Origin: an uncultured Pelagibacteraceae bacterium
Lineage (GTDB): Bacteria > Pseudomonadota > Alphaproteobacteria > Pelagibacterales > Pelagibacteraceae
Assembly: GCA_902585365.1 (NCBI GenBank)
Contig: CACIDF010000003.1
Location: 1 to 64,000, forward strand
Length of the DNA: 64,000 bases
Reading direction: 5' to 3'
Position 1 is the stretch's first letter, and every line of letters starts with the position of its first letter. Below, piece after piece: positions 5,707 through 14,611 of this stretch. Below the pieces are notes generated by a model. The model ran no database searches, had not been told where the DNA came from, and was given only the letters and a program-made list of their open reading frames with translations. A program made the position numbers and the translations under genes.

Positions 5707-5976
5707 TTAAATTTGAACTTTTTCTGACCTTAATAAACTCACTTTTTTTTTTACCCCACCTCTGCCAGAATAACCACCAAGGCCTCCATCTGACCTAATT
5801 ACTCTATGACAGGGTATTTTGGGGGCATATGGGTTCTTAGCACATGCATTTGCTACAGCCCGCGCTGCTTTTGGCTGATTTATAGCTATTGCAACATCTT
5901 TATATGTTTTAACTGATCCTTTGGGGATCTTTTTAAGATATTTCCAGACTTTGATTTGAAATTTAGTACCTTTCAT
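5707..5976 (-). CDS. Short methylated-DNA--[protein]-cysteine S-methyltransferase (MGMT C-terminal domain only)
   Basis: MKGTKFQIKVWKYLKKIPKGSVKTYKDVAIAI...PCHRVIRSDGGLGGYSGR; catalytic PCHRV retained. Start placed at the internal Met because the upstream codons overlap the hairpin block. Confidence 0.85.
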   Translation of the reverse strand: MKGTKFQIKVWKYLKKIPKGSVKTYKDVAIAINQPKAARAVANACAKNPYAPKIPCHRVIRSDGGLGGYSGRGGVKKKVSLLRSEKVQI

Positions 5977-5980
5977 GAAG

Positions 5981-6175
5981 AAAAAACCCCTGTTTCTCTG
6001 CACTTTTTAAGGTGCAAAGAACAGTAGTTTTGGCACGTCGTTGTATGCGCTACCGCCATGCCTTCCGCCCTACGATTTTAGCGCTACTCCGTAAGACTTT
6101 CTGCCCCCTGGGCTTGGTCCTCTCGGCCTTTCCCCAGTCGGCCAGTTAAGGGTTGCCCCTTAATTAACTTAGCTT
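5981..6175 (-). ncRNA. Candidate structured RNA (unidentified); strand inferred from the U-tract after the terminal hairpin
   Basis: GC-rich block in an otherwise very AT-rich region. Minus-strand stems: TTAAGGG-GCAA-CCCTTAA; CUGGG/CCCAG; CUUACG/CGUAGG; GGCAUG/CGUGCC; GUUCUUUGCAC/GUGCAGAGAAAC, then AGGGGUUUUUU. No convincing ORF. Confidence 0.5.
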
Positions 6176-6254
6176 AACAAATAATAATGGTTGTATGTAT
6201 CACTTTTTGATTGATTTGATGGTCCCATGTGGATTGTGTTAATAACTTTTGTTA

Positions 6255-6316: not shown

Positions 6317-7270
6317 ATGAATGAACTAACAACAGACCTAAAATCGCTGCACGAGGCAACACTAAATAACCTTAAAAGCTCAAAAGCAAATAACACTTTA
6401 AGAGCATACAAGTCAGACTTCAAAGATTTTGGAGCTTTTTGTGCTAAGCATGGTTTAAATTCCTTACCGTCAGAGCCAAAAATTGTATCTCTATACCTAA
6501 CTCATCTTTCTAAAAATTCAAAAATCAGTACATTGAGGAGAAGATTGGTGTCCATAAGCATGGTGCATAAACTTAAGGGGCATTATTTAGATACAAAACA
6601 CCCAATTATTGTTGAAAATTTGATGGGAATAAAAAGGGTAAAAGGAAGCATTCAGAAAGGTAAAAAACCCATATTAATCAATCATTTAAAATCAATAATT
6701 AATGTAATAGATCAACAAAAAATTGAGGAAATAAAGAAGTTTAGAGACAAGTCAATTATCTTAGTGGGCTTTGGAGGTGGTTTTAGACGAACTGAACTAA
6801 TTTCAATTGACCATGAAGATCTAGAATTCGTACCTGAGGGACTCAAAATCACTCTTAAAAGGTCAAAAACTGATCAATTTGGTGAAGGGATGATTAAAGG
6901 ACTACCCTACTTCACTAATGAAAATTATTGTCCGATTGTGAATCTTAAAAAATGGTTAGAAATTTCTAAAATTAAATCTGGACCAATTTTTAGAAGATTT
7001 TCAAAAGGTTCATCTTTAACTGACAAAAGATTAACTGACCAATCAGTAGTTTTATTAATGAAAGAATATTTAAATTTAGCAGGTATAGAAAATAAAAATT
7101 TTGCGGGTCATAGTTTAAGATCTGGTTTTGCAACAGTCGCTGCAGAGTCTGGCGCTGATGAACGTAGTATAATGGCAATGACTGGTCACAAAACAACTCA
7201 GATGGTTAGAAGATATATAAGAGAAGCTAATATTTTCAAAAATAATGCACTTAATAAAGTAAAATTATGA
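6317..7270 (+). CDS. Tyrosine-type site-specific recombinase / integrase
   Basis: SAM-like N-terminal domain ('NTLRAYKSDFKDFGAFC'), catalytic 'GFGGGFRRTELISI', 'AGHSLRSGFATVAAESGADERSIMAMTGHKTTQMVRRYIRE' (R, HxxR, H, Y). Confidence 0.95.
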   Translation: MNELTTDLKSLHEATLNNLKSSKANNTLRAYKSDFKDFGAFCAKHGLNSLPSEPKIVSLYLTHLSKNSKISTLRRRLVSISMVHKLKGHYLDTKHPIIVENLMGIKRVKGSIQKGKKPILINHLKSIINVIDQQKIEEIKKFRDKSIILVGFGGGFRRTELISIDHEDLEFVPEGLKITLKRSKTDQFGEGMIKGLPYFTNENYCPIVNLKKWLEISKIKSGPIFRRFSKGSSLTDKRLTDQSVVLLMKEYLNLAGIENKNFAGHSLRSGFATVAAESGADERSIMAMTGHKTTQMVRRYIREANIFKNNALNKVKL

Positions 7271-13203: not shown

Positions 13204-13280
13204 ATACCCTTAAAAGGTTTTAAATGGGTGTTTAAACTTTATTGTGAACCAAGCATAAGCAAAAACACAAAAAAAGGAGT
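13204..13280 (+). promoter_or_regulatory. Candidate SAM-II/SAM-V-like riboswitch pseudoknot in the metY leader
   Basis: Interleaved stems ATACCC(13204-13209)/GGGTGT(13226-13231) and GGTTT(13216-13220)/GAACC(13246-13250) form an H-type pseudoknot; 'TTTTAAATGGG' element; Shine-Dalgarno-like AAGGAG just before the metY ATG. Confidence 0.5.
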
Positions 13281-13285
13281 AAAAT

Positions 13286-14611
13286 ATGAGTAAATCAAAA
13301 AATCCAGAAACAATAGCATTGCACGGAGGTGAATATAGAAGTGACCCGGCAACTACTGCTGTTGCTGTTCCAATTTATAGAACAACTTCTTATCAATTTA
13401 ATAATACTGGCCATGCTGCAAATCTTTTTGCATTAAAAGAATTTGGAAACATTTATACGAGAATTATGAATCCAACAAATGATGTGCTAGAAAAAAGAGT
13501 AGCAGCAATAGAAAACGGTTTAGCATGTGTAACAGTCGGATCTGGACAGGCCGCATCAACATTTGCAATTGTTAATGTTTGTCAAGCAGGTGACAATTTT
13601 GTTAGTTCTACAGACTTATACGGTGGAACTGTAAATCTCTTTACACATACTTTAAAAAAATTAGGGATAGAAGTAAGATATGCTGACCCTTCAGATCCTA
13701 AAAATTTTGAAAAAGCAATAGATGACAGAACAAGATGTTTTTATGCAGAAACATTACCTAATCCTGCTTTGAGAGTTTTTCCAATTAAAGAGGTATCTGA
13801 TATTGGAAGAAAACATAATATACCATTAATAATGGATAATACTGCAGCACCTATTATATGCAAACCTTTGGATCATGGAGCTGCTGTAGTAGTTCACTCT
13901 TTAACAAAATTTATTGGCGGACATGGTACTGTTATTGGTGGTTGTTTGGTTGATGGTGGTAATTTTGACTGGACAGCAGATCCAAAAAGACAACCTTTGT
14001 TTAATGAACCAGATATGAGTTATGGAGGAGCTAAATGGGGAGAAGTAGTTCCACAGTTAACTGGAGCGAATGTTTCTTTTGCAGTTAGAGCTAGAGTTTG
14101 TTTATTACGTGATCTAGGAGCTCCTTTAGCACCAGATAATGCCTGGGGGATTATACAGGGGTTAGAGACAGCGCCATTAAGAATGAAACAACACTGTTCT
14201 AACGCAGAAAAAGCTGTTGATTTTTTAACAAAACACAAGAATGTTGAGAGAGTTATATACCCTACCCTCCATAAAGGATCTGTAGGTGATAGAACTAAGA
14301 AATATTTTTCTGGTGGTAACGGCGCCTTAATTGGTATTGAAGTAAAAGGCGGAGTTGAGGCAGGTAAAAAATTCATAGAAGCTCTTAAAATGTTTTACCA
14401 TGTTGCCAACATAGGTGATGCTAGAAGCCTAGCAATTCATCCAGCTACTACTACACACAGCCAGTTAACTGAAGAAGAGTTATTAGCTGCAGGTGTAACA
14501 CCTGGGTATGTTAGATTATCTATAGGTATTGAGCATCCGGATGATATAATTGCTGACTTAAAACAAGCACTAGATGCATCTGGCAAGCCAAGCCTTAAAG
14601 CTGTTAGTTAA
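13286..14611 (+). CDS. metY: O-acetylhomoserine sulfhydrylase / aminocarboxypropyltransferase
   Basis: Cys/Met-metabolism PLP enzyme: 'SSTDLYGGTVNLFTHTLKKLG', 'HSLTKFIGGHGTVIGGCLVDGG', 'GDARSLAIHPATTTHSQL'. Confidence 0.95.
   Translation: MSKSKNPETIALHGGEYRSDPATTAVAVPIYRTTSYQFNNTGHAANLFALKEFGNIYTRIMNPTNDVLEKRVAAIENGLACVTVGSGQAASTFAIVNVCQAGDNFVSSTDLYGGTVNLFTHTLKKLGIEVRYADPSDPKNFEKAIDDRTRCFYAETLPNPALRVFPIKEVSDIGRKHNIPLIMDNTAAPIICKPLDHGAAVVVHSLTKFIGGHGTVIGGCLVDGGNFDWTADPKRQPLFNEPDMSYGGAKWGEVVPQLTGANVSFAVRARVCLLRDLGAPLAPDNAWGIIQGLETAPLRMKQHCSNAEKAVDFLTKHKNVERVIYPTLHKGSVGDRTKKYFSGGNGALIGIEVKGGVEAGKKFIEALKMFYHVANIGDARSLAIHPATTTHSQLTEEELLAAGVTPGYVRLSIGIEHPDDIIADLKQALDASGKPSLKAVS

Follow-up and report, generated by a model that had tools for sequence, protein, structure and literature searches.

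A GC-rich block at positions 5981–6175 of the window (the whole 64,000-nt stretch of Pelagibacteraceae DNA that was analysed) is almost certainly a free-standing gene for an RNA of the known class IMES-2, and the loops of two of its hairpins very probably pair with each other in a kissing (pseudoknot) contact. Searching the window against all Rfam families with cmscan, we obtained a match to RF02035 (IMES-2) at 6030–6170 on the minus strand, which spans the model from end to end (1–141 of 141) and scores 157.8 bits against a curated gathering threshold of 54.7 bits (E = 1.8 × 10−41); the further Rfam matches in the window were two tRNAs and a SAM-V riboswitch. The match agrees with the Rfam family in its stems and conserved letters alike, and the element itself shows no difference from it, so that the class is already known and the window instance is an ordinary member. 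Beyond the Rfam model lie a terminator hairpin, conserved upstream motifs, three gene contexts and the contact between loops 3 and 4. IMES-2 was reportedly first described from environmental DNA, and its description in 2009 is said to have presented it as an abundant transcript in marine metatranscriptomes. To our knowledge no function has been assigned to it, and a literature search on IMES-2 function found nothing.

The block stands out from its surroundings in both composition and folding. Its GC content is 50.8%, compared with 27.2% for the window, and it is the GC-richest 195-nt stretch there: only 27 of 63,806 frames of this length are as GC-rich, all 27 at the same place, and stretches elsewhere stay at or below 47%. 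On the minus strand, 5981–6175 folds with −72.5 kcal/mol (z = −4.58), a stability equalled by none of 200 dinucleotide shuffles. A preliminary description made from the letters had pointed to a GC-rich, hairpin-rich block of about 190 nt encoding a structured RNA, and both the GC scan and the fold bear it out, as does strong covariation in relatives. The stems it listed recur in the minus-strand fold: its TTAAGGG-GCAA-CCCTTAA hairpin lies exactly at 6146–6163, CUUACG/CGUAGG forms the stem of hairpin 3 and GGCAUG/CGUGCC that of hairpin 4, and its last stem, followed by U6, corresponds to a stem at about 5985–6029 with U6 at 5981–5986. That observation was thus correct and sharp in recognizing a real RNA gene; the word "undescribed" has to be dropped, since the full-length RF02035 match assigns the RNA to a class already catalogued. 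IMES-2 was not among the classes that the description had excluded.

We examined the structure in an alignment of relatives comprising 63 distinct sequences. The Rfam core (6030–6170, minus strand, as are all parts of the RNA given below) consists of four hairpins. Hairpin 1 (6146–6163), closed by a GCAA tetraloop, is paired in 100% of cells, with both-side changes in 4 of its 7 pairs; hairpin 2 (6101–6145) carries a conserved internal loop, GAAA/CAAG, and a GAGA tetraloop, and has both-side changes in 9 of 15 pairs across its two helices. Both sides change in all 8 pairs of hairpin 3 (6067–6097), whose loop contains UAGCGCUA, and in 5 of the 9 pairs of hairpin 4 (6032–6062), whose loop contains GUAGCGC. 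Taking the stems together with the kissing helix, standard pairs fill 93.7% of cells and 29 of 45 pairs show both-side changes; double-change cells number 325, as against 79 in shuffles, a count that none of 500 shuffles reached. This signal was lost when the pairing partners were slid. A larger, model-based alignment agrees on stem covariation, although that alignment is fitted to the structure and hence biased towards it.

Covariation extends to the loops of hairpins 3 and 4, which the Rfam model draws as unpaired. The strand GCGCUA in loop 3 (6079–6084) is complementary to UAGCGC in loop 4 (6047–6052), and the six-pair helix that they would form is paired in 97% of cells, with both-side changes at three pairs (9 double-change cells compared with 0.9 in shuffles, 0 of 500); two of the six pairs are invariant in all sequences and thus uninformative. 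In a second alignment (A2), double-change cells of this helix number 15, compared with 1.8 in shuffles. The loops change jointly between the combinations GCGC/GCGC, GUAC/GUAC (loci L042, L222, L176 and L103), GCAC/GUGC (L038, L039 and L051) and UCGC/GCGA, the last seen as UCGCU/AGCGA in L041, L206 and L232. One group of about ten sequences, with AUCGCU in loop 3 and AGCGC in loop 4, could form only four Watson-Crick pairs and a G-U pair. Because loops 3 and 4 covary, we conclude from this comparison that they very probably form a kissing contact, one that is absent from the Rfam model and, as far as we could check, new. The inner stem GCG-GUAG-CGC proposed in the preliminary description does appear in the single-sequence fold of hairpin 4, but the comparative data instead favor pairing between loops 3 and 4. 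We also considered the recurring GUAGCGC as a mere protein-binding word and rejected it: in three lineages the loops are complementary without being identical. These non-identical complementary cases favor pairing between loops 3 and 4 over both a repeated protein word and self-dimers of loop 3. Since the common type of loop 3 is an 8-nt palindrome, dimers of IMES-2 are nevertheless conceivable, and such dimers, including ones made through contacts between loops 3 and 4, are possible.

The core is flanked on both sides by conserved features. Downstream, a fifth, terminator-like hairpin of 45 nt (5985–6029) is present in the fold and is followed by the U6 run (5981–5986). An equivalent hairpin occurs in all 111 loci (minimum free energy at or below −17.3 kcal/mol over 60 nt), and a run of at least four T lies 25–75 nt downstream in 88 of the 111. 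The hairpin's sequence is clade-specific: UUUGCAC..GUGCAGA in the window's genus, AAAUUUCUGGGC..GCCUAGAAAUUU in genus g5, GUCUGCGCACC..GGUGUGUAGAC in g6 and a further distinct sequence in g2. Upstream, the alignment shows a −10-like element, TTTGTTAAG (TATGATTTA in relatives), at a conserved position (6173–6181), which we take as part of a putative promoter, and a AAGTGATAC element about 35 nt upstream of the core (6197–6205) that is conserved in all three gene contexts. Two adjacent 9-mers, TTATTAACA and CAATCCACA, follow at 6228–6245; in relatives they resemble DnaA boxes (TTATCCACA and TTCACA/TTAACA) and lie some 40–50 nt before the AAGTGATA element in the IMES-2 contexts (upstream regions of L002–L111). 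This resemblance makes DnaA a candidate, and a link to replication or growth no more than a lead. At the stringency used, matches to the tandem 9-mers outside IMES-2 loci, which might have revealed a regulon, were at chance level, as in a reversed-pattern control. Overall, three gene neighborhoods share one cassette order: tandem 9-mers, AAGTGATA element, −10-like element, four hairpins and terminator-like hairpin. In L115, a complete genome of the window's genus, the cassette starts immediately behind the preceding gene's stop codon and ends at the start of the downstream gene. With the −10-like element, terminator hairpin and U6 as landmarks, the full transcript, comprising core, terminator hairpin and U-run, is likely to be about 190 nt long (5981–6170), its 5′ end being a prediction.

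That downstream gene (5707–5976, minus strand) encodes a protein with an O6-methylguanine-DNA methyltransferase DNA-binding domain, ATL-like (PF01035, 111.2 bits), and on the other side stands a divergent solitary tyrosine integrase (6317–7270, plus strand, PF00589); both lie outside IMES-2. This is the context in the window's genus, where DUF2938 or another small gene is sometimes inserted. In g5 and g6 mnmA precedes IMES-2, which faces a gene for a membrane protein; in g2 a diverged copy (62–69 bits) is flanked by a nuclease gene and an SRAP gene. Among 297 sampled genomes of the order, 140 carry IMES-2, always in exactly one copy, spread over 4 of 11 genera; the negative genomes, about half of the sample, include complete ones, so that IMES-2 is no general requirement of SAR11 (Pelagibacteraceae).

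These contexts bear directly on what the RNA belongs to. A cis-acting leader of the ATL gene, working like a riboswitch or attenuator, was one option in the preliminary description, and in the window's genus it has some appeal, with the ATL start codon a few bases after the terminator U-run and an SD-like AGGGG overlapping the hairpin. In g5, g6 and g2, however, IMES-2 is far from ATL and faces convergent genes, and 11 of the 12 ATL-bearing genomes of the window's genus that we examined have ATL with the IMES-2 cassette cleanly missing. A conserved position upstream of ATL is therefore not found, which contradicts a leader as the general function and leaves this reading highly improbable. The same 11 genomes keep both integrase and ATL, and this counts equally against a link to the integrase as part of a mobile element, be it as its RNA (another of the options first proposed) or as its attachment site. 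Adjacency in the window and recurrent gains or losses at a single site would fit such an element (presence and absence are interleaved on an ATL+EamA tree with at least six changes, a count that SAR11 recombination could inflate), but there is no integrase near IMES-2 in the other genera, and viral contigs and the phage and plasmid collections searched yielded no true copy. With links to element genes absent, the tie to the integrase is effectively refuted, and we give it next to no credence. Distribution and context thus leave no general role for IMES-2 as an ATL leader or integrase part, and three unrelated contexts sharing upstream motifs and a downstream terminator make a free-standing, trans-acting RNA, the remaining option of the first description, the most likely and best-supported reading.

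Searches beyond the Rfam matches did not extend this distribution. With our own covariance model (R1), 40 Rfam-negative genomes gave matches of at most 21 bits, and those inspected fell within protein genes such as rpoA. Nearly all matches in a pattern scan of species-representative genomes were Pelagibacteraceae; those in SAR116, Smithellaceae, Negativicutes and cyanobacteria, as well as all five viral ones, were chance matches and not IMES-2 when judged by R1. IMES-1 (RF02034), which is said to have been named in the same discovery work as IMES-2, had no match in the 297 genomes, but the controls were equally without a match, so that this negative carries little weight. The intergenic region beside recA in HTCC1062 has been noted as unexplained (PMC2704228). 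As a candidate for a substitute RNA it was rejected, consisting mostly of just a terminator-like hairpin after recA (14 genomes), and the six genomes searched there gave no Rfam match.

Several observations concern the neighborhood itself. Whether or not a genome of the genus carries IMES-2, the integrase keeps its place next to ATL, and it resembles a resident recombinase rather than a recent mobile element. An acetyltransferase-like gene lies between integrase and ATL in six IMES-2-negative genomes (L112, L116, L119, L120, L122 and L123), at the spot that in other genomes is taken by IMES-2 or by a gene for a small membrane protein; this genomic slot is small and variable in content. The ATL reading frame, with GTG starts, extends upstream into the terminator (window 5977–6003) and in some strains into IMES-2 (extended frames L002:1603–1974 and L007:1171–1539); automatic annotation may over-extend ATL in this way and hide the RNA. 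Elsewhere in the window, the SAM-V riboswitch (13217–13282, plus strand, 52.1 bits) lies directly upstream of an open reading frame at 13286–14611, an arrangement already known in SAR11 (PMC2704228).

Taking these results together, the overall explanation we consider best, and on balance probable, is a free-standing IMES-2 gene whose product has a kissing-locked fold and acts in trans as a protein-binding RNA. Judging from the flanking motifs, the gene would be transcribed from its own promoter and end at the terminator, and the free RNA of about 190 nt would act in trans. The six-base contact would lock hairpins 3 and 4 side by side into a compact domain, with the conserved unpaired bases of the GAAA/CAAG internal loop and the GNRA loops offering surfaces for a protein. 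More tentatively, the partner might be an abundant cellular protein or complex that IMES-2 modulates or titrates, as 6S RNA does with RNA polymerase. Of the mechanisms considered, a protein-binding regulatory RNA is the likeliest, though tentative. Titration of a CsrA-type protein through GGA motifs was tried and rejected: the GGA in the linker between hairpins 3 and 4 is not kept across clades.

The gene stands alone, in most clades with a terminator followed by a U-run, and its patchy presence is what a regulatory small RNA might show; both would also suit an Hfq-type RNA whose exposed loops base-pair with mRNAs and regulate them in trans. Yet such rigidity and conservation of structure are unusual for a seed-pairing RNA, and the alignment contains no long conserved unpaired stretch other than loops 3 and 4, which covary as a pair. 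Because the only long conserved loops pair and change together, a fixed antisense target is disfavored, and we regard a base-pairing small RNA as possible but rather unlikely.

SAR11 cells rank with the most abundant in the ocean, and few of their regulators are known. IMES-2 is an RNA class of this very numerous bacterial group, and it is made testable by the kissing contact and the cassette: with a single-copy, free-standing gene, this orphan RNA is now open to deletion, probing and pull-down in cultured relatives. Should IMES-2 prove to act on transcription or translation, SAR11 would gain a global regulator that has long been missing. The boldest form of this idea, a SAR11-specific global regulator with its own fold, placed under DnaA-box-like sites and having RNA polymerase or the ribosome as its target, in an order without detectable 6S RNA, strikes us as a long shot.

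Among known RNAs, 6S RNA (RF00013) resembles IMES-2 in size and in being a stable bacterial RNA, and it acts in trans as IMES-2 probably does. RF00013 had no match in the window's own genome or in any of the 297 genomes of the order, under stricter filters that a divergent 6S could escape, while Caulobacter and three other controls did match; SAR11 may therefore have no 6S RNA or a divergent one, and IMES-2 could be imagined as a 6S-like regulator of RNA polymerase in its place. The folds differ, however: IMES-2 does not match the 6S model and is built of separate hairpins, which no long closing stem encloses and none of which is long with a bubble at its center. With both RNAs missing from half of the genomes as well, we consider such a replacement improbable. 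The ornate RNAs GOLLD, ROOL and OLE are likewise conserved, structured bacterial RNAs and, as described in PMC12286853, form homo-oligomers; IMES-2 is much smaller than these, and by analogy it could in principle oligomerize through its palindromic loop as they do.
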